In this document: in pieces, positions 124 to 46,834 of the stretch
Numbering within the stretch: the first letter of the stretch is position 1
Layout of the letters: every line of letters starts with the position of its first letter
DNA from: a virus
Direction: 5' to 3' (one strand)
DNA: 46,834 nucleotides
Virus record (IMG/VR): IMGVR_UViG_3300013104_000010
Span: 1 to 46,834 of that record
Notes under the pieces: generated by a model
What the model saw: the letters and a program-made list of their open reading frames with translations, nothing else
Databases searched by the model: none
What the model was told of the DNA's origin: nothing
Made by a program: the position numbers and the translations under genes

Positions 124-2016
124 CATGTTGTTCAGTACTTCTTTTGTCGTGCTTTCTTCCGTGACCGCCATGTCGACATGATCGGCCCGAGTTGCCCAGA
201 TGCCGTCGGCCAGTCGATCGGTTTCCATTAGGTCGATATCGGCGTCGGTCAAGCCAACGGACTCCGCCACGTAAATAAACGGCGGGGCGACATCGCGGGT
301 TGCCTGCGGCGACAGCCATACGCCGCCCGAACGGACAGGCAGCATGCGCGTCGCGATTACGTTGATCTGGCTTTCCGACTGCGATGAAATTCGATCGGAT
401 ATCTGGATCCGGCCGGAAATCGTCGTGCACTGCGGGTAGGACGCCGGCATGGGCAGCGTGCACTTCAGCGCCAACCATTGGATGGTTGAACGCCATTCGA
501 TGTTCTGGGCCATCGGGCCGGTCTTGCGCATGCGAACTTCGGGGCGCATCGGGTAGGGCAGCGCCAGGTTTTGGGTATCGCCGATCTGGTCAAGTGTGTT
601 GTCCGTCAGCGACCGGGGAACGCTGGTCCAGGCTCCGGCGATGTCCATGTCGCGGTACTGCAGTTCATAGGAAACTTCCAGGCTGTAAAAATCGCCCTTG
701 GCACCAACGCCTACCAGGCCTTCCGGTAAGAAAACATCCCATTCGAGGTTCTGCGTTATCTCGCACGCCGGGCACGCAGGGAACGGCCCGCGCCAGCCCC
801 CCTCTAAACTGGAGCCGTCGAGCGAAATACTGGCCGTGGTCAACGTCGTGTTATCGAATCCCGGAAAACTGACGTCAGTTGAGCCTGAAGAGGTCAGGCG
901 CTCAACGGTCATGACGTTGGAGCCGATCGACAGAATGCGATACCGCAGACCGGCCGGCCCGATGGTCGCCGATCCGGAACCCAGCACCAGGCTATTTGCG
1001 GCCCCGCCAGCAGCAAAGTTCAGCGTCAGGTTCGTGCCATCCCATGAATTGACGATGTAAAGCCCAGCGTTCGTCCCAACGATTTCGACCGACTGCCCAA
1101 CGAACGGCGCCAGCATGGCAAGCGGGCCGGTGATCACGTCGCGAGCCGCCCCGCCGCCATCGGTCACGGTGTAGGTGTAGGGCACGACCATGCGAATCGT
1201 CATGCCCACATCCCAATCAGTCGGGAAGGTGCCGGCGCCCAGCGGAATGGTCACGGTATAGGCGTTGAAGTTTATCGAGGACGCGACGACGTTGGGCGTC
1301 AAGGCCGTCGATGCTGTCAGCTCAAGGCCCGCCGCACCGGTCGAACTGGAGCCCACTTCAGGCGCGGTATGCCACCACACGCACGACGGGTCGCCGCTGG
1401 TTATCGCACCGGGCTGGTAGATTTGGTATTCGGCTTCTGCGCCCAGTGCCAGGATGGCGGTTTCGCCGACCTTGACGTTATCGGCGTTGATCTGGAACTG
1501 CCCGACACCAATATTCATGTGGAACCGAATTTGCTGGGTTCGGCGGTCGGAGAAATATTTATGGGGCGGGAGCAGGTAATCTGGATAGATTTTCTGCGTC
1601 CCGAAGGACTCGCGAACTGGTTCACCGAGTTTCACCTTGTTGCCGCGCACACTGCCCTGGCCCAGCGCCTGGCCCTGCCCCGGGGCGTTCGGAGTTCCCG
1701 GCAGCTTCGGCATCAGCATGCCAAAGATCGCCCGAATGCCGCCGAACAGCGCGGCCGTGATCGAAAAGGGGTCGGTGCCCTGAGGGACTGCGCGGACTTC
1801 CAGGTAGTCTTTCGGCCGGAAATAGGTGGTCGGCCAGTCCTCCTGCAGAATCACCTCTTCATCCAGTTTGACCAGTGCCGGCATGAAATCGCCGGGCTTG
1901 TAGCCGCCACTCAAACTGCAATAGTCGTCGAGCCATTCCGCAATAGACATGCGGCGGTTTGTGGTCTGCGTATCGCACGGGCCGCCGTCGAGTAGATTAG
2001 GGAATATTTCGATCAC
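1..2016 (-). CDS. Tail tip host-specificity (J-like) protein, N-terminal part; gene continues at 46711-46037
   Basis: Large tail-tip protein of siphoviruses, inferred to close the tail tip and help contact the host receptor. Reading on from base 1 to 46711 gives one uninterrupted frame ending at 46037, 896 residues in all. The start chosen is GTG at 2016, overlapping the end of the NlpC/P60 gene by 20 bases; an AAGGTGG Shine-Dalgarno lies 9 bases upstream. The ATG at 1950 has no such site. The middle is rich in Thr, Ser, Val and Gly, as expected for beta-sandwich tail domains. The order tape measure, DUF1833-type protein, NlpC/P60, J-like is the standard tail-tip order of this phage type. The family call rests mainly on position and size. 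Confidence 0.8.
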   Translation of the reverse strand, partial: MIEIFPNLLDGGPCDTQTTNRRMSIAEWLDDYCSLSGGYKPGDFMPALVKLDEEVILQEDWPTTYFRPKDYLEVRAVPQGTDPFSITAALFGGIRAIFGMLMPKLPGTPNAPGQGQALGQGSVRGNKVKLGEPVRESFGTQKIYPDYLLPPHKYFSDRRTQQIRFHMNIGVGQFQINADNVKVGETAILALGAEAEYQIYQPGAITSGDPSCVWWHTAPEVGSSSTGAAGLELTASTALTPNVVASSINFNAYTVTIPLGAGTFPTDWDVGMTIRMVVPYTYTVTDGGGAARDVITGPLAMLAPFVGQSVEIVGTNAGLYIVNSWDGTNLTLNFAAGGAANSLVLGSGSATIGPAGLRYRILSIGSNVMTVERLTSSGSTDVSFPGFDNTTLTTASISLDGSSLEGGWRGPFPACPACEITQNLEWDVFLPEGLVGVGAKGDFYSLEVSYELQYRDMDIAGAWTSVPRSLTDNTLDQIGDTQNLALPYPMRPEVRMRKTGPMAQNIEWRSTIQWLALKCTLPMPASYPQCTTISGRIQISDRISSQSESQINVIATRMLPVRSGGVWLSPQATRDVAPPFIYVAESVGLTDADIDLMETDRLADGIWATRADHVDMAVTEESTTKEVLNNMLGCGFSEVTLDRGLLRPVRDEPRTVLEHGYSAQNMTEELVM

Positions 2017-2401
2017 GATAAAACGCCACCTTGTAATAGGTCTGCAGAAAACGGTCGACGTACATCCAGCGGACGCCGCTGCCAGGGTTGGTTTCCAATA
2101 GCGCCATCCTACCATCTATTTCAATCGCGACGGCCACATGCACCAGCACCTGGGCCCGGAACACCGCGGCAATGTGCCCCGGCCGCAACTCCGGCACCCG
2201 CTCCAGTGGGCCGGTCGTCAGGTCGCGGAACAGCCGTTGCATGGCCAGCGGGTTGTCTTTGTTGGCGTCAAGCGTGCCGTCCAGCACCGGCAGGCCCAGC
2301 GCCTCACGAATCAAAAGCGTGAGGCCCCAGCAATCGAAGCCCTTCAGGGTCCGGCCGGATTTCACATAAGGCACGAACAGGTATTTTTCGATGTCGATCA
2401 T
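1997..2401 (-). CDS. NlpC/P60-type tail-tip peptidoglycan hydrolase
   Basis: A 134-residue cysteine peptidase of the NlpC/P60 type found in many siphovirus tail tips, where it cuts peptide cross-links in the cell wall during DNA entry. The catalytic Cys is C24 in the motif GFDCWGL. The likely catalytic His is H88 in VHVAVAIE, followed by the expected alternating strands. It follows the DUF1833-like gene with an ATGA overlap and overlaps the J-like gene, a lambda K/J-like arrangement. The protein is short, with only the catalytic domain. Confidence 0.85.
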   Translation of the reverse strand: MIDIEKYLFVPYVKSGRTLKGFDCWGLTLLIREALGLPVLDGTLDANKDNPLAMQRLFRDLTTGPLERVPELRPGHIAAVFRAQVLVHVAVAIEIDGRMALLETNPGSGVRWMYVDRFLQTYYKVAFYRDRNIP

Positions 2402-2886
2402 GTGATGTATTTGATCCCCGGTGCCCAGTCGGACGTGTAGCGGAAACGCGGCCAGGCCGAGCCGATCAGATTAAAATACCCGCCCTGAATTTCGATCGTC
2501 GCACCCCGGGCGCTGAAATTCAGGGCCGTCAGCACCATAGGCCGTTCGGCTGGGGCGGATGGGTCGGATTCGAGGTATACGCGATAAACCATTTCAACTT
2601 CAGCGCCGGCAGCCTTCGCCAGATCAAGGCGTTTTTGCGCCTCGCCGCGAACATTATCCATCGCGATACCCAAGACCTGGTTGGCTTCGTTGCCCTGCTT
2701 CGGCAACGCCGCATCCAGCCCGAGCGCCTGAAAAATTACCGTCTGCGACGTTTCCAGCGTAAACGTCTGATCGAAGAATCCCGATGTCAGATAAAGCGAA
2801 TCGGCCCACGCGGTCGAACGCAGCTCAATGGTCGGGATTTCGACGTCAGTGCCGCCGCTGGACCGCAGTATGTTCAGCGGGTTCAA
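2398..2886 (-). CDS. DUF1833-like minor tail/tail-tip protein
   Basis: A 162-residue protein of the type usually annotated DUF1833, placed between tape measure and NlpC/P60 genes in many siphoviruses. It is mainly predicted beta structure (IELRSTAW, YLTSGFFDQTFTLET, VYRVYLES), consistent with a tail-tip ring protein. The final part, with YTSDWAPGIKYIT, is aromatic-rich as in distal tail proteins. It overlaps the tape measure gene by four bases, so translation is probably coupled. The role in tip assembly is inferred from gene order. Confidence 0.7.
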   Translation of the reverse strand: MNPLNILRSSGGTDVEIPTIELRSTAWADSLYLTSGFFDQTFTLETSQTVIFQALGLDAALPKQGNEANQVLGIAMDNVRGEAQKRLDLAKAAGAEVEMVYRVYLESDPSAPAERPMVLTALNFSARGATIEIQGGYFNLIGSAWPRFRYTSDWAPGIKYIT

Positions 2887-5660
2887 TTGCCTGCCCTCCG
2901 CGTGTTGGTGATCTGATTGGTCGACTGTGCGGTTTTACCGCCACCCATCTGGTCACCGGCAACCACGTCGATCACCCAGGCCCGATCGGCGTCGCTGAAT
3001 CGAGCGACTGCTGACGCCTGCTGCCCGGTATAGTTATTCACGTTGACGATCGGCGCGTTGCCCCCGCCGCTGCCCATCTGTGCGCTGGCATCCTTGTTAT
3101 TGACAACCTGACCCCGCTGGTTGGGAATCATGTACTGCTGGCCCCCGGCGCTGAACACCTCAGGGGCGCCGCCTTCGTTGACCCGGTAAACGCTGTTCGC
3201 CGAAACGTTACCACCGGCACGCCGACCGCCGCCGAAGCTCTTGGCGAGCAACATGGTCGCCAGCAATGCCGCGCCGCCGATCACCGCCGCGCCGCCGAAC
3301 GATGCGATCGAGGACAGGCCTGCGGCCGGGGCCATCGAGGTTGCCACCGCTGGGCCGGTTGCCGCTGCGGCCGCCGTGGTGGTCGTTGCGATCGTTGCGG
3401 TCGCGCCAGCCTGAGCGGCGGTTACCGCTGCAATGCCGCCGGTCTGGGTTGCCGTGGTTGCCGCGGCTGCGCCCTGCATCATGATCTGTTGCTTGACCCA
3501 GTCGGTGCCCATTTGGGTAAAGGCGCCGATCACCGTTCCGAGAACCGTTTGCGCTACGCCGCCCAGTGCTTCGCGCCAGTTTGCTGTGCCTGAAGCCAGG
3601 CCCGCCAGCGCCTGCGCACCCTGAGCGCTGAGCGCGTCAAGGCTATCGAACAGGATCTGGTTCCCCATTGCCTGCGATTTAAAGTTTTCCTCTTGAAGCT
3701 GTTTCATTTTCGCCGCGTTTTCCGTCTCGGCGATGTGCTTCAGCTCCAGATAACGCTGATCGCTGAGCAGCTTCTGCGCGTTCAGGTCGTCCAGGCGCTT
3801 CAGTTCTTCGTCATAGCTCTGGGTCTGCGCGGCGATCGGATCGGCCTGCGCAAGCGCGGCCTTCGCGCCTTTCAGATCGTACAGGGCCGCCGCCATATCG
3901 CGAATGCGCTGCACTTCGTCAGGGGTGGCGAATCGGCTCAGCCCTGCCTGCGCAACGTCCTGCGCAACTTCACGAGCGGTCTGCCCCACGTTGCTGATTG
4001 CCAGGCCCAGTTCTGCAAATTTCTTCTGATCGCCAGCGATCGCGGTGCTGCGTTCCTTTTCTGCTTTGCGTTCGGCGGCCTCGGCTTCACGCTGCAATTT
4101 CGCGGATTCAGAAATCCCGGCTTTCTTGACCTTCAGACGGTTTTTCTCAGCCTCGGCCAAGTTGAAGTTTTCCACGGCCAGGGCGACCGCTGCGGCACGT
4201 TCCGAATCCGTAGCCCCAGCACCGAGTTTTTGAATGGCGGCCAGTTTGGCGCGCTCGACCCCCTGAGCGCGCAAAAGCACGTTTTGTTCGGCCAGTTGCT
4301 GGATTACCTTCTGGCCTTCGACGGTCGTCGTTGCGGCGGCGCCGCCGGTTCCAGATTCCTGTTTCTGCTGAGCAACGCGACGATCCTGCATCGCCCGAAT
4401 TTCTTCGTTCAGCGCGTCGATCCGCTGACTGGTGGCGTCGGCAGTTTTCGTCAGCCCGGCTCTGACCTGAACGGCATATTGCTGTTCGGCTACGGCACGC
4501 TGCCGTAGCAGGTCGTTGAACCGCTCCACGTCGGTCGGACTGAACGAACGCTGAACGCCCAGCGCTACCGCATCGAGGGCCGCAGCCAGGGTACGCGATG
4601 CGCCCGTTGCACGATCGATCACCGACAGCGCGGCGCCGAATTGAGTGGTAAGGGCGTTCGCCGCCTGGCCGATCGTGCGTGGCAGCTTTTCGAATTCTGC
4701 ATTGACGTCTTGCGAGCGGCCCAGCAGCACATCGAACAGATTTTCGGCCGTGATCTGACCGTCCAGCATCATCTGCCGCAATTGGCCCAGGCTGACGCCG
4801 AAGCCCTTGGCGATCTGCCTGGCGAGCTCCGGAGTGTTCTCGATAACACTGTTGAACTCTTCAGCGCGCAGCGTTCCGCCAGCCAGGCCTTGGCTCAGTT
4901 GGCGCAGGGCGTTGCTGGTTTCCTCGGCGCTCGAACCGCCGATCGTGCCGATTTTCTGCAGGGTTCCGGTCAGCTGCAGGACTTGGGCGTTTGTTGCACC
5001 GAGCGCAGTCAGGGTGCCGGTCAGGGACTCCCAGAGTTTGACCGTATCGCCCATCGTGCTACCGGTTTTGCTGGAAATGCCGAGTAACGCCTGATAGCTG
5101 GCTGCAGCAGTATCAATATCGGGGCTGAGGCGGTTGATCCGGGACTGAAACAGCGTGAACTGTTCAGCCATCTGCCCCCATTGCTTGATGGTCTGGATAC
5201 TGATCAGGCCGGCGATCACTGTTGCAAGCGGGGTAAGCGTTGCGGCAAAGCCTTGAGAGCTCTTCGCCGTCTTGACGGTATTGCTCTGAAGATCGGCGTA
5301 ACGCTTATCGAGCTTCGCCAGTTCGGCGGAATACTGCGCGGCGCTGAGCCGGCCGGCATCGAAGTGCTGACCCAGTTCTTCGGTCCAGTTGTCGAGCTGC
5401 TGGGTTTTGCCGATCAGCGGGTCGATCTGGCCGAGCAGCTTGCGCAGCGAAGCCGCAGCGCCATCGGCGTCCTTGCCCATACTGTCGAACGAATCGCCAG
5501 CCCCCTTCGTAGATTTCTTGGTCCGGTCGGCCGCCCTGTCGGTTTTATCGAAAGACGCCTGTAGCGCATCGAGACTGTCGACCGCACGTTTGCCGGCATC
5601 GATGACCTTGTCTGTCTTGGCATCGACTTCGTAGTAGATCGCGCCGGCGTTTTCTGCCAT
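2883..5660 (-). CDS. Tail tape measure protein
   Basis: A 925-residue tape measure protein that sets tail length and is ejected ahead of the DNA. The N-terminal 120 residues are Lys/Asp-rich and coiled-coil-like. Residues about 150-350 match the conserved tape-measure domain (AEETSNALRQLSQGLAGGTLRAEEFNSVIENTPEL is recognisable in part). A long Ala/Gln/Glu coiled coil follows, and hydrophobic Ala/Gly/Thr-rich segments lie near 690-820, as expected for a membrane-inserting region. At about 0.15 nm per residue the tail would be near 140 nm. It is the longest gene of the window and starts one base after the preceding gene's stop begins (TAATG), consistent with coupled translation. Confidence 0.93.
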   Translation of the reverse strand: MAENAGAIYYEVDAKTDKVIDAGKRAVDSLDALQASFDKTDRAADRTKKSTKGAGDSFDSMGKDADGAAASLRKLLGQIDPLIGKTQQLDNWTEELGQHFDAGRLSAAQYSAELAKLDKRYADLQSNTVKTAKSSQGFAATLTPLATVIAGLISIQTIKQWGQMAEQFTLFQSRINRLSPDIDTAAASYQALLGISSKTGSTMGDTVKLWESLTGTLTALGATNAQVLQLTGTLQKIGTIGGSSAEETSNALRQLSQGLAGGTLRAEEFNSVIENTPELARQIAKGFGVSLGQLRQMMLDGQITAENLFDVLLGRSQDVNAEFEKLPRTIGQAANALTTQFGAALSVIDRATGASRTLAAALDAVALGVQRSFSPTDVERFNDLLRQRAVAEQQYAVQVRAGLTKTADATSQRIDALNEEIRAMQDRRVAQQKQESGTGGAAATTTVEGQKVIQQLAEQNVLLRAQGVERAKLAAIQKLGAGATDSERAAAVALAVENFNLAEAEKNRLKVKKAGISESAKLQREAEAAERKAEKERSTAIAGDQKKFAELGLAISNVGQTAREVAQDVAQAGLSRFATPDEVQRIRDMAAALYDLKGAKAALAQADPIAAQTQSYDEELKRLDDLNAQKLLSDQRYLELKHIAETENAAKMKQLQEENFKSQAMGNQILFDSLDALSAQGAQALAGLASGTANWREALGGVAQTVLGTVIGAFTQMGTDWVKQQIMMQGAAAATTATQTGGIAAVTAAQAGATATIATTTTAAAAATGPAVATSMAPAAGLSSIASFGGAAVIGGAALLATMLLAKSFGGGRRAGGNVSANSVYRVNEGGAPEVFSAGGQQYMIPNQRGQVVNNKDASAQMGSGGGNAPIVNVNNYTGQQASAVARFSDADRAWVIDVVAGDQMGGGKTAQSTNQITNTRRAGN

Positions 5661-6286
5661 TACTTTTTCCCCGACCGCAGTTTATTGATTTCAGCAAGTC
5701 GGGCCATTGTAGCCTCAACCTCCGAACCGGTCAGGGGTTTCGCAGCAACTTCGCCAGGTTTGCGCGGGAACTTGGATTTCATGACATTGACGAAACTGGT
5801 CATGGTCATGTTCCAGGCATCCGATTCTGACAGGCCCAGGTGCGCGATGGCCGCCGAAACGTATTCCTGCGCATGAAACTCGGCCAGCGGTTCGCCGCCA
5901 GCCTGCCCATCGTTCTCGACGTCGCCCGGCACCCCGTGACGGATCAGGCCTTGGGCAATCGCGACGATGTCATAGGCCGGCATGGTCCCGGGGCTGTAAT
6001 TGATCCGCCCACGGCCAGGCACCATGCCGCCGATCAAATCGCCCAAGTCCTGGTCACCGGCGCAGGAATAGAGCACCGTCAGCGCCCATTCGAACCGTTC
6101 CTTGCGAAAACGCTTCAGCAGGAACGGGTTTTCGGGCCCCGGTTCAGGAGCCAGGAGCAGGGCGGTCGCTTCGATAATGTCGGCTGGCGAACCGATCTGC
6201 GACACAGAAAAAAGGGACGGCCGCAATAGATACGACCGTCCCCCTGTTTCTATGCCGACCTCGCCAATGGCGGTCAGCGCGCGCAT
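5660..6286 (-). CDS. Putative tail assembly chaperone (DUF6246-like)
   Basis: A 208-residue protein directly upstream of the tape measure gene, the position of the tail assembly chaperone in siphoviruses. It resembles proteins annotated DUF6246 in Pseudomonas phages. The C-terminal third is helical and basic (FVNVMKSKFPRKPGE and ARLAEINKLRSGKK). The stop overlaps the tape measure ATG as TAATG. I looked for a G/GT-type frameshift extension: only a weak GAAAAAG run precedes the stop and a -1 shift there would fuse it to the tape measure, so no frameshift is claimed. Confidence 0.6.
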   Translation of the reverse strand: MRALTAIGEVGIETGGRSYLLRPSLFSVSQIGSPADIIEATALLLAPEPGPENPFLLKRFRKERFEWALTVLYSCAGDQDLGDLIGGMVPGRGRINYSPGTMPAYDIVAIAQGLIRHGVPGDVENDGQAGGEPLAEFHAQEYVSAAIAHLGLSESDAWNMTMTSFVNVMKSKFPRKPGEVAAKPLTGSEVEATMARLAEINKLRSGKK

Positions 6287-18084: not shown

Positions 18085-18118
18085 CAGTTCTAACGCCTTT
18101 TCGGTTGATTGAGCCCGT

Positions 18119-18147
18119 AGGCTATTCGCCTTTATGTGCACTGTCAA
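18119..18147 (-). promoter_or_regulatory. Phage-consensus promoter
   Basis: On the minus strand: TTGACA (18147-18142), 17 bp spacer ending in AAAGGCGAA, TAGCCT (18124-18119). It follows the terminator at 18161-18178 with only a short link, making a terminator-promoter cassette, and drives the genes 18084 to 16683. Confidence 0.82.
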
Positions 18148-18151
18148 GCGC

Positions 18152-18178
18152 ACAATAAAAAGCCCCGGTAAAGGGGCT
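18152..18178 (-). terminator. Intrinsic terminator
   Basis: On the minus strand AGCCCC (18178-18173 side) pairs with GGGGCT (18166-18161), loop TTTACC, followed by TTTTTATT. It ends transcripts from the genes 19097-18333. Confidence 0.8.
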
Positions 18179-19097: not shown

Positions 19098-19137
19098 AAA
19101 TTAACGCCTCATCGGTGAATCGGTTGATTGAAACCGC

Positions 19138-19166
19138 AGGCTATTCGCCTTTGCGCTTGCTGTCAA
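19138..19166 (-). promoter_or_regulatory. Phage-consensus promoter
   Basis: On the minus strand: TTGACA (19166-19161), 17 bp spacer ending in AAAGGCGAA, TAGCCT (19143-19138). It lies directly after the terminator of the large RNA and drives the genes 19097-18333. Its initially transcribed region (TTTCAATCAACCGA) resembles that of the promoter at 18119-18147. Confidence 0.83.
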
Positions 19167-19171
19167 GCAGG

Positions 19172-19198
19172 CAATAAAAAGCCCCGGGGGAGCGGGGC
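19172..19198 (-). terminator. Strong intrinsic terminator ending the non-coding transcript
   Basis: On the minus strand GCCCCG (19198-19193) pairs with CGGGGC (19186-19181), loop CTCCCC, followed by TTTTTATT. It is the only strong terminator downstream of the terminase genes and the structured RNA. Confidence 0.85.
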
Positions 19199-19272: not shown

Positions 19273-19393
19273 TTGCACCAGATGAACCGTCGGCAGCCGC
19301 ATTTAATGTCTGCTGGACTGGAGAACGCATTGATCCCGACTTACCCTTACGGGCTCGGGGAGCGCACAGGCCCCGACGGTTCATCTGGTGCAA
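19273..19393. repeat. Perfect 21-bp inverted repeat
   Basis: Bases 19273-19293 are the exact reverse complement of 19373-19393, with 79 bases between. The core of the left arm (GGTGCAAT read on the minus strand, 19279-19272) can also pair with ATTGCACC at 19232-19225, so two pairings compete. In between, CCCGA/TCGGG and CCC-GTAA-GGG form a smaller arm. It is most easily explained as a long helix of the non-coding RNA. Confidence 0.85.
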
Positions 19394-19883: not shown

Positions 19884-21157
19884 CCCCTCTTTTTAATCAG
19901 CATGCCCACCTGGCGCCCTTTCGATTTCATAACTTTCTCGACCGCATACCGCAGCGCATCGATGTAGTGGTTGTATTTGTCGACGATCACCCTGGTAACT
20001 TCACCCGTCAGGCGGTCGACCTTGAAGCTGTAGTGCTTGAACTCGTTCTGCACAGCGTGGCAGGTCGGATGCACGATAATCGAGTAGGTTTTCAGGTGGT
20101 CGATGCCGTCCTCGACGCTGCCGGGGCCCTTCACAGCGCCCTCGATAAGCATGAGGTAATCAGCCTTGCGCTGGCCGTTCGGCGACATGGCCTTCGACAG
20201 GTGACTGATCGATTCAGGCCTGGCGCTATCGGCAATCACCTCATGCTTATCGATGCCCGGGATCTTGGCCTTGAGGAATTTCGCGGTGTCGTCCAGTTCA
20301 AGCCCGATCTGCCCGGCCTCCTTGTCGATGTACAGCTCGGTTTCGTCCGGCGATATCCAGCAGCGCACCGCGGCCGTCGGATCCATCGCGAAGCCGAAGT
20401 CGAGACAGTGGTAGGGCCCGTGCCAGGACGCATCAGGGAACCGGATGCCTTCTTTCCAGGCGCCCGCGAATATTTTCGATTCGTCGTTGGTCAGGTAGGC
20501 ACCCTTCCAGATCCAATCGAACTTCGCAGCGTCGAACTTCGCCCGTTGTTTCTCCCGCAGCTTGCGCAGCCCGATCGGGAACCACGGGTTATCCTCGGCG
20601 TTCATTTCGACGATCGCATAATCCGGATCGTTCGCCGCAACGTCGGTCCTGAACCTGGTATCGGTCGGGCTGCCTTCGTCTTTCGGGTTCCAAATCACCC
20701 AGATTTCCGACCGCAGTTTGCGCAGGACCGTCGCTTCGAGCGCCACCCAGGCATCTTCGCTGATGTCCTCCGCCTCTTCGACTACCGTCAAATCGATGTT
20801 GGCCAACGACTTGACGCTGGTCAGGTTGTTGTAGAGCCCCTTGAACAGGAATTCAGTCGTGTTGATCTTGCTGCGCAGGTAGTCGATGCCCACGTCGTAG
20901 GCTGCAGCCAACCACGGTTCTGAGGCGATCGCCGCTTTCAGCTCAGCGTGAAACGAATCCTTGATCGAGGACTGAATTTCGCGAACGCACAGCACCCGCA
21001 GCGGCTCGATCACGCCGAATATCGCCGCCATCTTGGCGAAGCTCATCGATTTACCCGATCCCCTGCCCCCGTGCGCCCCTCTGTAGGTCAGCGAGCCGCG
21101 TTTCCTGGCGAAAACCGGGATCAGCTTAGGGGGCAGACGGACTTCGGCGTTACTCAT
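19880..21157 (-). CDS. terL: Terminase large subunit
   Basis: A 425-residue packaging ATPase-nuclease. Walker A is GGRGSGKS (about residues 30-37); Walker B with its catalytic Glu is LTVVEEAE (about 125-132). The C-terminal RNase H-like nuclease shows its acidic residues in CLDFGF (about 251), VIADSARPES (about 309) and HYIDALRY (about 397). The subfamily looks like Terminase_3/PBSX-type. It follows the terminase small-subunit reading frames with a short overlap. Its last codons overlap a promoter for the downstream RNA. Confidence 0.95.
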   Translation of the reverse strand: MSNAEVRLPPKLIPVFARKRGSLTYRGAHGGRGSGKSMSFAKMAAIFGVIEPLRVLCVREIQSSIKDSFHAELKAAIASEPWLAAAYDVGIDYLRSKINTTEFLFKGLYNNLTSVKSLANIDLTVVEEAEDISEDAWVALEATVLRKLRSEIWVIWNPKDEGSPTDTRFRTDVAANDPDYAIVEMNAEDNPWFPIGLRKLREKQRAKFDAAKFDWIWKGAYLTNDESKIFAGAWKEGIRFPDASWHGPYHCLDFGFAMDPTAAVRCWISPDETELYIDKEAGQIGLELDDTAKFLKAKIPGIDKHEVIADSARPESISHLSKAMSPNGQRKADYLMLIEGAVKGPGSVEDGIDHLKTYSIIVHPTCHAVQNEFKHYSFKVDRLTGEVTRVIVDKYNHYIDALRYAVEKVMKSKGRQVGMLIKKRG

Positions 21158-21617
21158 CGTCGGCAGACCCCTCTACGGCTTCCGTCTGGGCCACCAGGGT
21201 GATCATCGTCGGCATTTCAACAAGTGGGGCGCCGTTCTTCCCGGTCAGCTCCTTGCGGTCGATCTGGTAGCCGCACAGCTGAGCGTAGAACACCCGGGCA
21301 GCCTGCTGATCGTGCATCTGGATTTCGTAACCGTTACGCGTTGGCTTGATCCCCTTGTACAGCGCGCGGCCTGCCTCCGACAGATCCCTGAAGTCGGTCG
21401 GCCGCACCTCTTCGTGCCCCTTACCGTCACAGTGTGGGCAATCAGGGTTCGGGTCCGCGTTCGTCGTGAAGCCCATGCCGCCAGCCCAGTCGGGCATCGG
21501 CACCTTGTCGGGGGTTTTCTCGTGCCGCTCGACGGCCGCTTCGAACTCGTGTTCCTTCCACTGGTACTTGAAGTCCTCGCCCCAGCAGTGCCTGCAGCCG
21601 ATGCGGACATGACACAC
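21150..21617 (-). CDS. terS: Terminase small subunit, C-terminal part after in-frame amber
   Basis: A 155-residue frame with two probable zinc-binding Cys pairs (CRHCWG near residues 9-12; CPHCDGKG near 59-63), YQWKEHEFEAAVERHE and RALYKGIKPTRNGYEIQMHDQQAA. This is the C-terminal region of a known long type of terminase small subunit that in other phages follows directly on an HTH domain like that at 21905. The frame is the same as that gene; only the TAG at 21662-21660 interrupts. Restart at GTG 21617 has only a weak site (GAGCTG). Either readthrough, separate translation or a mutation is possible. Confidence 0.7.
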   Translation of the reverse strand: MCHVRIGCRHCWGEDFKYQWKEHEFEAAVERHEKTPDKVPMPDWAGGMGFTTNADPNPDCPHCDGKGHEEVRPTDFRDLSEAGRALYKGIKPTRNGYEIQMHDQQAARVFYAQLCGYQIDRKELTGKNGAPLVEMPTMITLVAQTEAVEGSADDE

Positions 21618-21659
21618 CAGCTCAGCGGGGTCCGCAGTGGCGACGAGCCAGGTCCTGTG

Positions 21660-21905
21660 CTACAGCTCTTCAGCGCTGACGTGAAAGGTTTCCAGGCGCT
21701 TCGCCTTCCTGGCCATCGCCGTTTCGTATAGCGCCGGCTTGAGGTGCGGCTGACGGAACCAGCTGTAAACGGTTTTACGCGCCACATCGCGACTGTAGCC
21801 GGCGGCCAATGCGCTGTTGTAGGGGTCGAGCGTTTCCTCGTATCGCAGGATCAATTCCTGCTCACGGGCGTTCAGCTCTTCGAACCGGTCTCGGTGATCG
21901 GCCAT
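21660..21905 (-). CDS. terS: Terminase small subunit, N-terminal HTH part ending at amber
   Basis: An 81-residue protein with a terminase-type HTH: helix NAREQELILRYEETLDPYNSALAAGYSRDVARKTVYSWF, followed by LKPALYETAMARKAKRLETF and VSAEEL. It ends at TAG (21662-21660). The downstream sequence in the same frame (TWLVATADPAELV) continues naturally into the Cys-rich region. Together the open length would be 251 residues, close to the usual size of this small-subunit type. The protein would bind the packaging site. Confidence 0.75.
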   Translation of the reverse strand: MADHRDRFEELNAREQELILRYEETLDPYNSALAAGYSRDVARKTVYSWFRQPHLKPALYETAMARKAKRLETFHVSAEEL

Positions 21906-21957
21906 CGTCTTGACTCTTGAGTCATGTAATTACCGCTAAATATACCATTCCTACAGG

Positions 21958-22277
21958 TGCCGAGTATCAAAGCCGAGTGCCGAGTATTGTTTTTCGCATA
22001 CTCGGCAGGCTACAGGCCACGTATTCCGCGGGTTCCAGCCATTTCTGCCGAGTATTGCCGAGTATGCCGAGGTGGTTTCGTCGCCGCGCCAGCTGGCAGC
22101 CCACAGCCTACCGGCCGCCCCCTATATCCTATAAATATAATCTATCTCTACTACTTAAAGTAATACTCGGCATACTCGGCAAAAAGGCTACAGGCCACGG
22201 TTTTAAAGGGTTCCAGCTGCCGAGTATTGTTTTTCGCATACTCGGCAAAACCCGTTTGATACTCGGCATCATCGGCA
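21958..22277. repeat. Iteron-like array, ten copies of TGCCGAGTAT in both orientations
   Basis: Exact copies in plus orientation start at 21958, 21978, 22046, 22056 and 22218. Exact copies in minus orientation (ATACTCGGCA) start at 21998, 22163, 22172, 22238 and 22259. Partial copies are at 22065 and 22269. Two copies face each other across a 10-base loop in an identical 30-bp hairpin at 21978-22007 and 22218-22247. The flank GGCTACAGGCCACG is also duplicated (about 22008 and 22186), as is GGTTCCAGC. The array is a candidate protein-binding region, such as a replication origin or packaging site. Confidence 0.9.
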
Positions 22278-22360
22278 GATCGATTAAAATTTATCATCGT
22301 GCAGACCGAATCGATTATAAATTTCATAATTTATGAAAAATTACATAAATTACAGGCGAT
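22120..22360. other. AT-rich DNA beside the iteron array
   Basis: Two stretches stand out in a GC-rich genome: about 22121-22165 (TATATCCTATAAATATAATC and following) and about 22283-22355 (AAATTTATCATC, ATTATAAATTTCATAATTTA and following). These would melt easily, as needed for an origin. No protein gene fits between the terminator at 22365-22382 and the terminase small-subunit start at 21905. Confidence 0.6.
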
Positions 22361-22382
22361 AAAAAACCCGCCGAAGCGGGTT
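22361..22382 (-). terminator. Intrinsic terminator after primase-polymerase gene
   Basis: On the minus strand AACCCGC (22382-22376) pairs with GCGGGTT (22371-22365), loop TTCG, followed by TTTTTT. It follows the stop of the primase/helicase gene by a few bases and isolates the iteron region from upstream transcription. Confidence 0.88.
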
Positions 22383-22387
22383 AAAAA

Positions 22388-25051
22388 TTATAGATTTTCA
22401 AGCCTCCAGACTATTCGCCGCTTTCGGTCCTGCACGCCGACGAACTTTCTACCGTTCAATGCCCGGCCTTTCATGTCCCGCAGGAACCACCCGAGCCGCT
22501 GCGGGTTGTTGCGACCGTGCTTGTCTGTGTTCACCAGCTCAATGGCCTCAAGCCAGTTCGGGCAGGCCACCGGGTCGACAGGCTCATGCAGGATTTCGTA
22601 GGTCGTCCGCCCTGCATCGCCGAACCGTTCGAACCAGGCACCCATGAGCATTTCAAGCTTCTGGACTTCCGGGTCAGCTTGTTGTTGTGCCTGCATTTCC
22701 TCGATCGGGTCCCCCCAGCCCAGCCACACGACGGCGCCACGGACTAGGGCGTTCCATTCTTCGAACGACGCGTAGCCACCGATCCGGCGTCGGGTTTCTT
22801 CACGGCCGTAAGCCGAGTAGGTCACCAGCAGGTCGATCAGGTCACCGCGTATCGAATCCATGTTTGTGCGGATCACCTCGACCGGATCAAAGCCGTGCTT
22901 GCGCAGCTCGGGCGCCTCATCGCTGCACAGGTTGATCGGCAGCAGCCGGCGCACCATGTCGCCGCTGATCGATACGTTGTTGCCGTTCAGGACCCACATG
23001 GCCCGGTTCGGCAGGCGCAGCATCACTGATTTGCCCAGCAGGCGGCTGTTGTATTCCTCACAGGTGAGCGCCATGCAGAGTTCGCTGGACGCATCCAGGT
23101 AGCGCATCACGTTGTCGAACATGATGGTCAGCGGCCCTTGGTCGAGGATCGACGTCAGTACCTTGGCCTGTTCGGCCTGTTCCCGCCCGATGGCCGACAT
23201 CCGTGGTTTTTCGCCCGTCAGCCACAGCAGCGCCGACGACAGCAGGGTTTTGCCGGTGCCGAACACCTGAGCATTGACCAGGAACGCAGGCGCCGTGGGC
23301 AACGCTGGCCGGCACACCGCCGTGAACATCGCCGCCAGGCACACCGCCCGGGCCGACTGATCAGCGAACGGGAACTCGGCGAACGGCGCCCATACCCGTT
23401 TCAAAGCCTCAGCCATTTCATCGGTCGTCAGCAGGCGGGGCGCTCGAACAGCCCCGCGCAGAACGTAAAGCCCCGTGCGTTCGTCCAGGCCCTGTTCACT
23501 GGCGACTGAGCCATCGGCGCGCACCACCGGCAGCGGCACCGCGGCTTTGATTTCGCCCACGCCGGGGAACCACTCACGCTCGACCACCCGGCGCATCAGT
23601 TCGCCCGGGAGTTTTGCCGGTGCGCCCTTGCCGCCTTTTTCGACGCGCATGTGCGTTTCGACTTCGGAGGCGATCGTGTTGAGGGTGTGTTTGAGGATCC
23701 GGCCGTCCGGCAGCACGCTGACCAGCTGCTGATTGCGCTGGAACAGGTTGGGGAACGCGGCCAGGGCCTTGACGATTGCCCGTTCGGCGCTGACCAGCTT
23801 GCCGTCGTCAACCTCGATGCGTTCGCAGCCGGCGGCGATCTGATCGGCCGTCAGGCGACCCACGGTTGCCCAGGTTGTGCGAGTGGCGCAGTTGTGCGCG
23901 ATCCAGGCCCGCAGTTCAGGTGTGTCAGCGGCGGCCGGATGCATCAGCAGCATGTCGAGCACCGCCTGACAATTGCCGCCGGATTTCCACGCCAGATCTT
24001 CGAGTAGCGTGCCGATATCGCCGGCTGCCCAGCGTGCCGAGAAATCCCGGGTGTCGCTGTCCTGCAGTTCGGCCAGAAGCTGGGCCGGGTCCGTTGATCC
24101 GCGGTACAGGTCGACCGGCTGCGTCGTCCAGGTAATTTCGCGTGGTGCCGCAGTGACAGCCGGCGGAAACGAATTGAAGGCGGCAGCCGCATCGACCGGG
24201 GCGCGTTGACTGGCGGTCATACCGGCCTCATGCAGGAGCGAACCGAGCGTGCGCGCCCCGGGCTTGAAGCTGTCGTGATGGTTCCACTTGTCTTCGAAGA
24301 ACCCGTCGTCATGCTTATCGGACGTCTCGGACCACTGGCGCGCTAGCTCATAACCGACACCCTCAGCACCTTCGGTGTGTTCTTCCCAATGACGGATCGA
24401 GGCGATCGCCGGCTGCCAACTGTGGTAGTCGTCAGGATCCCGCCCAGACAGGGCCTGCATGATCAGTTCGACGTCGTCGAGTTTGCCGGCGTAATCAGCC
24501 GCGGTACGCGCAGGACGGGGCGCACGGACGTTGATCAGGAAACCGGGGATCGGCGCCGGGGTCACCGCGCCAGGCGTAACGCCCGCGGCCCACTCATAGA
24601 AACGGCCGTTCGGGTGGCGCGACGGGGGCAGCACCGCATAGCCGTTGTATTTGCCATCGATACCCCGACCGTCGACCAGGGCGCCCGGCTGACTGTTATA
24701 GGTGGCATCGGCCCGCATCGGCGCGTAATAGTAGTCATGAAACCCGCCGCCCGGGCTCAGGACCTTGAGCGGCGAGGATAACGGCCCGTGCAGCGCCTGC
24801 AGCCGTTCGTGATCGATATGGCCGTCGTTGCGTGGATCGACGTCGTAGACGTACAGACCGCCGGCCGATGGGCGGGTGCCGATGTTCGCGTCAGGATTGG
24901 CCGACCACCAGGCGTCGATTTGTTTCAGGTCAGTCGTTGCTTCGCTGGAACCGTTGCTGCCCTTGAACGGTGATTTCGTGCCGGCGACAAGCGGGAAGAC
25001 ATGCCAGCCCAAACCGGCGTAATAACGGGCCCACTGGTGAAGGGGGCTCAT
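22388..25051 (-). CDS. Bifunctional primase-polymerase/helicase replication protein
   Basis: An 887-residue protein, starting at ATG 25051 which overlaps the previous stop as ATGA. The N-terminal 250 residues form a primase-polymerase (prim-pol) domain, with WHVFPLVAGTKSP, AWWSANPDANIGTRPSAGGLYVYDVDPRNDG (catalytic Asp near residues 68-72) and PGGGFHDYYYAP. The C-terminal third is a helicase/ATPase, with Walker A FGTGKTLLSSALLW (about 594-601), LTIMFDNVMRY as Walker B-like, and MLRLPNRAMWVLNGNNVSISGDMVRRLLPI as sensor region. It likely primes and unwinds DNA at the phage origin. The iteron array lies just beyond its 3' end. Confidence 0.88.
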   Translation of the reverse strand: MSPLHQWARYYAGLGWHVFPLVAGTKSPFKGSNGSSEATTDLKQIDAWWSANPDANIGTRPSAGGLYVYDVDPRNDGHIDHERLQALHGPLSSPLKVLSPGGGFHDYYYAPMRADATYNSQPGALVDGRGIDGKYNGYAVLPPSRHPNGRFYEWAAGVTPGAVTPAPIPGFLINVRAPRPARTAADYAGKLDDVELIMQALSGRDPDDYHSWQPAIASIRHWEEHTEGAEGVGYELARQWSETSDKHDDGFFEDKWNHHDSFKPGARTLGSLLHEAGMTASQRAPVDAAAAFNSFPPAVTAAPREITWTTQPVDLYRGSTDPAQLLAELQDSDTRDFSARWAAGDIGTLLEDLAWKSGGNCQAVLDMLLMHPAAADTPELRAWIAHNCATRTTWATVGRLTADQIAAGCERIEVDDGKLVSAERAIVKALAAFPNLFQRNQQLVSVLPDGRILKHTLNTIASEVETHMRVEKGGKGAPAKLPGELMRRVVEREWFPGVGEIKAAVPLPVVRADGSVASEQGLDERTGLYVLRGAVRAPRLLTTDEMAEALKRVWAPFAEFPFADQSARAVCLAAMFTAVCRPALPTAPAFLVNAQVFGTGKTLLSSALLWLTGEKPRMSAIGREQAEQAKVLTSILDQGPLTIMFDNVMRYLDASSELCMALTCEEYNSRLLGKSVMLRLPNRAMWVLNGNNVSISGDMVRRLLPINLCSDEAPELRKHGFDPVEVIRTNMDSIRGDLIDLLVTYSAYGREETRRRIGGYASFEEWNALVRGAVVWLGWGDPIEEMQAQQQADPEVQKLEMLMGAWFERFGDAGRTTYEILHEPVDPVACPNWLEAIELVNTDKHGRNNPQRLGWFLRDMKGRALNGRKFVGVQDRKRRIVWRLENL

Positions 25052-25239
25052 CGGATAATCGCCCAGCAGAACCGACGGCAATCGACCCAGCCGGTAACGG
25101 CCAGTCGCTGAAGGACCAAAGAGGCTTGCCCCCAAGTGCACCCTACTGCCCGTGCAATTAAGTAGGTCGTGTATCGGCCTTCGCGGTAATACAAAAATTC
25201 AATGATCGGCTGTTCGAGGTCCTGACGATGCAAGCTCAT
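25048..25239 (-). CDS. Small winged-helix-like protein
   Basis: A 63-residue protein. LEQPIIEFLYYREGRYTTYLIARAVGCTWGQASLVLQRLAVTGWVD looks like a helix-turn-helix with a wing, so DNA binding is likely. It is coupled to the primase gene and to the upstream gene by four-base overlaps. It might act with the primase or control the operon. Confidence 0.6.
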   Translation of the reverse strand: MSLHRQDLEQPIIEFLYYREGRYTTYLIARAVGCTWGQASLVLQRLAVTGWVDCRRFCWAIIR

Positions 25240-25673
25240 TTCGACTGCCCCCGCTGCCCATCCAGTTCCACTTCGATTAGATGCTGCATATCAGCGATAG
25301 CCTCGGGGCCTCGCAAATGCAGCATCATTCCATAATTGGCCGAGTCGATGATATCGCCTGCCAATACGCTGCGGACGAACAGCATGACCAATCGCGCTAC
25401 GCTGCACCGCTCCGGATCGTCCCACCCTTCCCTCCCCTTCGCCCTGGCCTGTGCCATCTTGGCGTGCATCGCAGCGGCGAAACGGTCGACCGCCTCATCG
25501 TCAGGGTGCTGGTTCACGGCGGTATGCGCCAGGACGTCGGCCAGTGTGTAGCGAATGGTCCCGGCACCGATACGGTGATGCGGAAGCAGGCCGTCACGGG
25601 TCAGTTTCTGAATGGTTTTGATGTTGATCGACAGGACGTCGGCCAATTGTTCCGCGCTAAGAACTTCGGGCAT
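25236..25673 (-). CDS. Excisionase-like HTH protein with C-terminal phage domain
   Basis: A 145-residue protein. Residues 1-50 (VLSAEQLADVLSINIKTIQKLTRDGLLPHHRIG..RYTLADVLAHT) form a HTH_17/excisionase-type DNA-binding domain. Residues about 85-130 (GWDDPERCSVARLVMLFVRSVLAGDIIDSANYGMMLHLRG) match a short conserved segment found in many phage proteins ('GWDD..CS...L...HV..GD.VD.ANF.MML'); its role is unknown. No integrase is present, so a regulatory or replication role is more likely than excision. Confidence 0.7.
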   Translation of the reverse strand: MPEVLSAEQLADVLSINIKTIQKLTRDGLLPHHRIGAGTIRYTLADVLAHTAVNQHPDDEAVDRFAAAMHAKMAQARAKGREGWDDPERCSVARLVMLFVRSVLAGDIIDSANYGMMLHLRGPEAIADMQHLIEVELDGQRGQSK

Positions 25674-26545: not shown

Positions 26546-27304
26546 TTAATACGTGCAGACCAGACATCCGGGGTTATCAGCGTTTCTCTCTTTACCGCCC
26601 TTCGATGTCCAGATGCTTTTCCCGATCTCATCTGCAACTTGCCTGGTTCTGATCAACTGGCCTTTTCCAAAGTCATCGTATTGAAAAGCCTTTTCCTTCC
26701 ACTTGTCGCCGGAAGCAAGGCAAGGAAAGCAGCCAACTCTAGGGAATCCATCGTGATACAGAGGGTTCAGGTTATCCCAACCAACGCATTCGGTTACTTG
26801 CTCTTCGCTCCAGTCCAAAACACAGAGGCGGAACCAAACGCCAAGTTTGTTTAGGTACTTCGGGTATTTGCTCGGGATAACCAAATGCGGCGGATACAGT
26901 TCACCAGGTAGTTTCCCATCGTAACGCTTTGCCCTGGCAGCACTCTCCTGAGTACGCATGCCATACCAAACCTCAAAGCCATGCCCTTGCTCTTCGGCAA
27001 GAGCCTTGCAGAATTTCTTGGTTGGCACGATCTTCAACTCGTCCGTGCAGTGCCTTGCGCCTCCGCCAGGGAAGCGACCGTATTTCGTCGACTTCTCCAG
27101 TACATCGCCGGCCGTAATAGTGACGATCTCCACGCCGTAATATTCAGCCATCCAGGCGACATGGGCGTAAGTCTTTGGGTGTTCGTAATGGGTATCACAG
27201 AACATGCCAAGGATTTCAGAGCGGTCGAAGTTCTCAACCGCCATCTTCAAGCACGCCTGGCTATCTCTACCGCCGCTTATTGGAACCAAACATTTGACTG
27301 TCAT
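26546..27304 (-). CDS. PP-loop ATP pyrophosphatase, PAPS-reductase-like
   Basis: A 252-residue PP-loop enzyme with the SGGRDS motif at residues 10-15, the adenylating motif seen in PAPS reductase, QueC and DndC families. Further parts of the family are MFCDTHYEHPKTYAHV, GGARHCTDELKIVPTKKF, a GMRTQESAARAKRYDG segment and CVLDWSEEQVTECV. Cys residues GCFPCLA and PGCLVC may form a metal or FeS site. It may activate a sulfur or nucleotide group; a role in modifying phage DNA or tRNA is possible but not shown. The ATG overlaps the stop of the small gene upstream. Confidence 0.8.
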   Translation of the reverse strand: MTVKCLVPISGGRDSQACLKMAVENFDRSEILGMFCDTHYEHPKTYAHVAWMAEYYGVEIVTITAGDVLEKSTKYGRFPGGGARHCTDELKIVPTKKFCKALAEEQGHGFEVWYGMRTQESAARAKRYDGKLPGELYPPHLVIPSKYPKYLNKLGVWFRLCVLDWSEEQVTECVGWDNLNPLYHDGFPRVGCFPCLASGDKWKEKAFQYDDFGKGQLIRTRQVADEIGKSIWTSKGGKERNADNPGCLVCTY

Positions 27305-46040: not shown

Positions 46041-46834
46041 GGCGCCGTCGCATCGTCTGATAGATAAACGCGAACATCATAACCTACCATTTCCACCGAT
46101 GCGTCAAAAACTCCCTTGGGGCTGATCGAGGTCACCAGGACTTTGTAGACCCAAGACACCGTCGGGCCGAACAGGATGTGCGGCGGGTCTTCGTTATTGT
46201 CCCAAGAAACATCGGGCACGAAGTCCAGCGGCGGCACGGAAAAGGTGAAATCGTCGATCCTGGTCGCCACGTAAGGGCCCGACAGGGTGCCGTCCTTACG
46301 GCGCAGGGCGGCCAGGTAAACGCCCGGTTCGTCCCAGTTCAACGGCTCGGAAGACGTCAACACCGCACCGCCGATAATGGGCAGGTACTCCAGCAACAGC
46401 GCCGACTGGCCGTAGCCTGGAATGTCCGAGCACACGGCGCAATATGACAGGTAGCGACTGTTCAAGGCGTCGCCCGGGGTGCTGAAGCTGAAGCGATCGC
46501 GACGGTACTCATGAATCCGACGGCGCCGCATGCCGAACTGATAGGCTTTGTTGCGATCGGTGATCCCCGGGGCGCTGATCTTGTCGACCCGCATGCCTTG
46601 CAACGGGTCACTGGGCAGCCGGCAGTCGACCACTTCTTCGGTCCAGGTCGTCGAATCCTGATAGGTCACCTGAACGCCGTCGAAGTCATTGGCCGATTTC
46701 AGATCGGATTCCATCACCAGTTCTTCGGTCATGTTCTGTGCGCTATAGCCGTGTTCGAGCACCGTGCGCGGTTCATCCCGAACGGGGCGCAGTAGGCCAC
46801 GGTCTAGCGTGACTTCGGAAAACCCACAGCCCAA
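46037..46834 (-). CDS. Tail tip host-specificity (J-like) protein, C-terminal part
   Basis: Continuation of the gene at 1-2016. Bases 46834-46712 repeat 123-1; unique codons run from 46711 to the stop at 46037 and add 224 residues. The first apparent start (TTG at the end of the window) is only an internal Leu codon. The region has beta-rich fibronectin-like stretches (QVTYQDSTTWTEEVVDCRL, PGVYLAALRRKDGTLSGPYVATRIDDFTFSVPPLDFVP, TVSWVYKVLVTSISPKG), typical of the C-terminal part of tip proteins. Confidence 0.82.
   Translation of the reverse strand: MGCGFSEVTLDRGLLRPVRDEPRTVLEHGYSAQNMTEELVMESDLKSANDFDGVQVTYQDSTTWTEEVVDCRLPSDPLQGMRVDKISAPGITDRNKAYQFGMRRRRIHEYRRDRFSFSTPGDALNSRYLSYCAVCSDIPGYGQSALLLEYLPIIGGAVLTSSEPLNWDEPGVYLAALRRKDGTLSGPYVATRIDDFTFSVPPLDFVPDVSWDNNEDPPHILFGPTVSWVYKVLVTSISPKGVFDASVEMVGYDVRVYLSDDATAP
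46712..46834. repeat. Terminal direct repeat, right copy
   Basis: Identical to bases 1-123. See the left copy. Confidence 0.95.

Follow-up and report, generated by a model that had tools for sequence, protein, structure and literature searches.

The repeat array located at 21906-22387 of the window, the whole 46,834-base virus record analyzed here, is most probably the replication origin of this phage. Judged from sequence comparison and from analogy with known systems, it is probably bound by the C-terminal winged helix of the adjacent primase-helicase (the initiator), and the repeated word and this domain probably coevolve. The origin assignment is well supported by the layout of the array, its position, precedents characterized in the laboratory and its linkage to the C-terminal part of the initiator. 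The preliminary description had proposed an origin or a packaging site. The first part of that proposal stands on these grounds, and the second is disfavored, as the array is linked to the initiator rather than to the small terminase gene (terS). This kind of origin is already known, and the phage adds a member to it. What is new is that the array layout persists in relatives while the word changes.

Anatomy of the array

The word TGCCGAGTAT is found in ten exact copies, five on each strand, that span 21958-22268. They start at 21958, 21978, 21998(-), 22046, 22056, 22163(-), 22172(-), 22218, 22238(-) and 22259(-), and no other exact copy exists in the record. With up to one mismatch allowed, the window contains 13 matches compared to 1.95 expected, and none of 100 shuffles reaches 13. 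Read from either side, the order of the words is ++-++ and then --+--, a mirror arrangement about an AT-rich center. From the outside inward, each half-array contains a single word and a 30-nt hairpin, then a flank element of 33 nt and finally two tandem words spaced at 9-10 bp. In the half-array on the terS side (21958-22065), the outer word is located at 21958, the hairpin words at 21978 and 21998(-), and the inner tandem pair at 22046 and 22056. In the mirror half-array on the primase side (22163-22268), the inner tandem pair is located at 22163(-) and 22172(-), the hairpin words at 22218 and 22238(-), and the outer word at 22259(-).

The two hairpins, at 21978-22007 and 22218-22247, are each formed by two inverted words and are identical (fold z score of -5.6 for each). 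The flank element, GGCTACAGGCCACG...GGGTTCCAGC, is found at 22007-22039 and in the same orientation at 22185-22217, with 82% identity between the copies. Unlike the words, which are mirrored, the flanks are direct copies. Flank-like pairs 178-192 bp apart are also present in the related loci L012 and L022. The center between the half-arrays (22119-22165) is 74% AT, compared to 41% for the record, and is likely the melting site. An outer AT-rich stretch (22287-22362, 75% AT compared to the same 41%) is located between the array and the intrinsic terminator of the primase gene (22365-22382, minus strand). The array begins 120 bp behind the primase-like gene, and the terS start is 53 bp from it on the other side.

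The ten word copies with five in each direction, the two inverted pairs forming identical 30-bp hairpins, the duplicated flank, the two AT-rich stretches and the primase gene with its terminator had all been listed in the preliminary description, and each was recovered. Its statement that the region holds no protein gene needs qualification. Mechanical open reading frames run across the array region, for example at 21917-22336 on the plus strand (139 aa); we nevertheless take the region to be non-coding, since the repeat frame is all that relatives preserve of it.

The initiator gene (22388-25141, minus strand) encodes a Prim-Pol domain, PriCT_2, a helicase-like part and a predicted C-terminal winged helix; translation may actually begin at an ATG inside this frame. 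The Prim-Pol (PF09250, E 2e-28) and PriCT_2 domains were matched in Pfam, and the protein matches phage primase PHROGs as well as PHROGs of unknown function. The helicase-like part contains GTGKT at residues 628-632, identified by eye, and its PHROG relatives are of unknown function; the Pfam search gave no helicase match for the initiator. An HTH_17 protein gene (25236-25673) is located upstream of the primase.

The terS gene (21150-21905, minus strand), followed by the large terminase gene, is a neighbor that we do not think is part of the origin. The preliminary description had named it a small terminase subunit, and this identity comes only through relatives, Terminase_2 being matched (E 9e-8) in L012. 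The gene is interrupted by an in-frame TAG at 21660-21662 (minus strand), where aligned relatives have AAG (K), and similarity is good beyond the stop. The stop may be a nonsense mutation, a population variant or a sequencing error. A comparison of all frames of the relative G004 with the window gave mostly shadow frames; among the large genuine genes, terS alone was seen to carry an internal stop, in a non-rigorous count by eye.

Arrays and words in relatives

In relatives with initiators 58-87% identical, the array occupies the same slot and is composed of other words. Lack of conservation of the repeats had been put forward in the preliminary description as an argument against its reading. 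The word is indeed not conserved; the array layout is. Inner words with a period of 9 were assigned by us for the word-distance test described below, giving seven words for seven genomes: TGCCGAGTA in the window, TGCTGAGTA in G005, TGCAGGGGA in G004 (the genome of L012), TGCAGGAGA in G003/L011, TGCATAGGA in L027, TGACAGGGA in G002/L010 and TGCGACATA in G001/L009. The best 9-mer count exceeded all 60 shuffles in 12 of 15 regions, the exceptions being L092, phage BPP-1 and a 98-bp stretch behind the L020 primase.

The words differ at specific positions. Between the window and G004, whose initiators are 87% identical, eight exact copies are in register, and every one of them is changed at positions 4, 6 and 8 of the word. 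Counted over these exact copies only, 24 of 24 cells are changed at the three positions and 0 of 55 elsewhere, compared to a background of 34 of 205 sites. Between the window and G005, seven copies, again exact ones only, differ at position 4 alone (7 of 68 cells; background 73 of 191 sites). Mixed arrays are also found. The L027 array contains TGCATAGGAT alongside TGCAGGGGAT, as judged by eye, and G004 carries one hybrid copy, TGCAGAGTAT.

The 30-nt hairpin had no exact match in viral_contigs, and a scan of genome_contigs with the primase alignment found no relative. A strict scan for mirrored pairs recovered 6 of the 15 loci that we consider to carry arrays; reading the sequences backward did not serve as a control, because reversal preserves the property. 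Three contigs break in or beside the array (the L014 end and L022 start, both G005; the L023 start, 3300034069_000764; the L024 start, 2162886012_000045), which reflects either assembly trouble caused by the repeats or ends. In L047, a second inverted repeat family, ATTATGG, is present at 5680-5790 between the iteron array and a terS-like gene.

In a more distant group (L013 and L015-L021), no array directly follows the primase. In the four members read on the terminase side, the array is located 2.5-3 kb from the primase, before HNH and terS. Exact GGTAGAGAT is present in three of these four arrays (L013, L113 and L106), and L105 contains one-mismatch copies only. The same recognition-helix stretch is found in all five C-termini of this group that were examined. 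In L105, L106, L113 and L013, HNH or HNH-like genes lie directly behind the array. The primase frame of L018 (5324-7927) contains a stop codon.

Linkage to the initiator and alternative readings

A comparison of L010 and L011 separates the array from terS. Identity between the two initiators is 97, 100 and 99% over three segments covering residues 198-520, and further on it is 80% (521-760), 82% (761-820) and 56% (821-917). In 120-bp bins, the DNA is 58-86% identical over the C-terminal half, 34-50% over the array and 99% at the bin of the terS start. The TerS proteins differ at about 4 of 259 residues, counted by eye. By these sequences the pair is a natural swap, in which the C-terminal half of the initiator and the array would have been replaced as a block; the N-terminal half of the primase and terS are near-identical. 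In L027 (initiator at 336-3056), identity to the window initiator is 22% in the Prim-Pol stretch and 74% in the helicase stretch, and from this the primase end seems to have been exchanged too.

Linkage to the primase was also observed in a survey of the best 80 of 165 TerL loci. A locus was scored as having an array when some 8-mer occurred five or more times within 420 bp, with two or more copies on each strand, a threshold set by us; 15 of the 80 loci had one. Forty-five loci, counted by hand, extend 3 kb or more upstream of TerL. A primase is located upstream in 19 of these, and 11 of the 19 carry an array, compared to 1 of the 26 that lack an upstream primase (Fisher p 7e-5; the loci are not independent, as L132/L133 and L136/L137/L141 look like duplicates). 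The numbers for all 80 loci are 13 of 21 and 2 of 59. The sole primase-less array locus of the 26 is L113, and the primase of its contig (L016) ends about 200 bp from the other contig end. Weaker arrays are seen in three of the eight uncalled primase loci (L099, L105 and L106). Seven further arrays were read in detail. A Pfam-supported primase or primase-helicase is located upstream on the same strand in six of them, in four within 140 bp.

These data bear on the proposal that the array is a pac or cos site, where TerS would bind repeats beside its own gene and TerL would cut nearby. The array is indeed close to the terS start, and in many relatives it is found just before terS or HNH-terS. 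However, near-identical TerS proteins in L010 and L011 accompany different arrays, which argues that array specificity is not tied to the small terminase. Of the 26 terminase loci with no primase in view, L113 alone had an array. In L118 and L132, the array is located behind the primase and the TerL start is kilobases away. Phage Sfi21 has an origin in the same position, and in five related records the contig ends, which may be assembly products, lie at differing distances from the array. We consider a packaging site unlikely.

The part of the initiator that changes with the array contains a candidate word reader. The AlphaFold2 (AF2) model of the whole initiator is poor (pLDDT 54), and the C-terminal domain alone was used. 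Residues 815-917 are predicted to form a winged helix (pLDDT 89.7, pTM 0.80). In this domain (residues 821-917; 22391-22681, minus strand), the predicted recognition helix comprises residues 881-890 (22472-22501, minus strand), with hypervariable residue 878 just ahead of it, and the wing tip comprises residues 903-908 (22418-22435, minus strand), with hypervariable residues 904 and 907. Variability was counted in the seven genomes with seven words, over 742 columns with all residues present. Six columns contain at least six different residues (834, 851, 878, 904, 907 and 916), and all six fall among the 97 C-terminal columns (p 4e-6). Only two columns contain seven different residues, 878 before the predicted recognition helix and 907, which belongs to the wing. 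When L010, L011 or L027 is omitted singly, the p value weakens to between 3e-4 and 0.06; 878 and 907 stay among the most variable columns in every case, sometimes together with others.

A Mantel test of word distance against identity, underpowered at seven genomes, gave no significance for any initiator domain or for TerS (C-terminus, rho 0.28, p 0.20). Foldseek with the C-terminal domain model gave no match at E<=0.001, and sequence searches of the PDB gave nothing useful. VIA-align 2 matches reach Z 6.3 with many winged-helix proteins among them, which reflects a common fold and does not show relatedness. The winged-helix model and the hypervariability agree with the C-terminal domain binding the iterons.

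The HTH_17 protein could instead bind the words and start or control replication, with the primase following. It is a protein of DNA-binding type in the same cluster, is present with both primase groups, and is 69% identical to its L012 counterpart, compared to 87% for the primase. However, the hypervariable columns are concentrated in the winged helix of the initiator. The L010/L011 swap block covers the initiator C-half and the array, in a comparison that stops short of the HTH_17 gene, where the L010 contig ends, and SaPI Rep and Cch2 are described as using their own C-terminal domains (PMC7581432). We consider this role for the HTH_17 protein very unlikely. Even more improbable, in our view, is that the array serves as an operator or a partition site and not as an origin. 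Repeats ahead of a gene start can be operators, and a TATATT-like stretch precedes terS. Against this, all ten copies in the record are found in one place, extending over 310 bp with an AT-rich center; no partition gene was found among ten proteins scanned, and the terS-proximal stretch is common to L010 and L011 despite their different arrays.

Several observations count against the origin assignment itself. The minimum of the cumulative GC skew, a check suggested in the preliminary description, is located near 35-36 kb and not at the array. The others are the 2.5-3 kb gap in the distant group, the initiator without a Pfam helicase, the null result for word distance and the weakening when single genomes are left out.

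Known origins and proposed mechanism

PICI origins are described as two iteron sets that flank an AT-rich region right behind the primase/initiator gene, and terS can come after the origin there too (PMC6092414). The SaPI Rep reads its iterons through its C-terminal domain (PMC7581432). Similarly, the half-arrays in the window are mirrored about the center at 22119-22165 and located directly 3' of the initiator gene. Unlike in these elements, the array belongs to a phage record of 46.8 kb that carries terminase genes itself, and the initiator is an archaeo-eukaryotic-type Prim-Pol with PriCT_2, not a DUF927 or D5 type. The size of the record and its TerL speak against it being a PICI itself. 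An organization called peculiar to PICIs would extend to full-size tailed phages with Prim-Pol initiators.

In the record of Sfi21, a Streptococcus thermophilus phage, a non-coding stretch of 302 bp behind the primase gene is annotated as the origin. It combines an AT tract with tandem words in mirrored arrangement (TTAGTTACTTAGTTAC ... GTAACTAAGTAACTAA) and has further inverted words on the outside. The window shares this anatomy of non-coding mirrored repeats and an AT tract behind a primase gene. The Sfi21 word is different (TTAGTTAC, with a period of 8), as is the host, and terS is not beside the origin. This origin was reportedly characterized in the laboratory by Foley in 1998. The Sfi21 element, known as a PER element, is described as an ori able to block incoming phage DNA (PMC6356513).

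Proteins of the Bordetella phage BPP-1 type contain Prim-Pol, PriCT_2, a helicase and a winged helix, with a proposed origin behind the gene, and a stem-loop without iterons is described downstream of the replication protein gene in BPP-1/BIP-1 and plasmid pRN1 (PMC4234260). The window initiator resembles these in its Prim-Pol, PriCT_2 and winged-helix model. In the BPP-1 stem-loop, we observed a 9-bp word that is present as a tandem pair and again in mirror image, with a copy count that does not beat shuffles. This suggests that the published stem-loop holds a mirrored iteron pair.

In the Vibrio cholerae PLE, the initiator's DNA-binding domain covaries with the iterons of the origin, both function as modules, and the iterons are targeted by a phage nuclease (PMC8263062; iterons given in PMC7145576). 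This targeting provides a model for why words turn over, and the HNH genes beside the arrays of the distant group are a possible link to it. The PLE differs from the window in having a RepA_N initiator without primase or helicase and three semi-palindromic iterons of about 30 bp. The origin layout of phage P4 includes crr. Its alpha protein, a fusion of primase, helicase and winged helix, binds repeats at its own origin and has a primase of Toprim type (PMC4234260), whereas the window initiator is a Prim-Pol (PF09250). A literature search, mostly outside subscription journals, found no account of word turnover at Prim-Pol phage origins.

Our proposed mechanism is based on the pRN1 model and the SaPI scheme (PMC4234260, PMC7581432). 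Several copies of the neighboring primase-helicase would dock on the 9-10 bp word through the C-terminal winged helix. The two mirror-image clusters would load helicase assemblies, possibly opposed rings, facing opposite ways. The AT-rich center would melt between the clusters, and the Prim-Pol domain would prime both strands. The changes at positions 4, 6 and 8, the L010/L011 swap, the hypervariable winged helix, and the word and helix shared in the distant group suggest that each word evolves together with its matching winged helix, which would give each phage its own origin specificity. The block of helicase, winged helix and array may be exchangeable as a cassette. Turnover of the word may be driven by origin exclusion or by escape from interference.

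It is possible, though short of probable, that word and winged helix are matched to each other in a natural series across these phages, that very few residues (878, 904 and 907) set origin identity, and that all copies of a word are exchanged together within an origin that otherwise stays as it is. The mixed array of L027 and the hybrid copy of L012 would then be in transition, and the origin would act as a fast-changing lock. Such a lock would prevent co-infecting phages, satellites and nucleases directed at origins from interfering with one another's replication. Among the relatives, natural alleles of the initiator domain come paired with alleles of the origin word in similar backgrounds, which makes it testable how an origin swaps its word when about ten copies and a protein must change together. 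The array layout may also serve as a simple signature for origins in unannotated phages.

The window has a 123-base direct terminal repeat (1-123 and 46712-46834). Terminal repeats of 115, 127, 110 and 42 bases are found in G001, G003, G004 and G005, and all these records look like circular assemblies. A PAPS-reductase-like gene (PF01507) is located near the replication genes at 26546-27304 (minus strand). A perfect 21-nt inverted repeat is found at 19273-19293 and 19373-19393, with 79 nt between its arms, and a 68-nt direct repeat, 82% identical and ending in terminator-like hairpin sequence, at 18101-18168 and 19120-19187.
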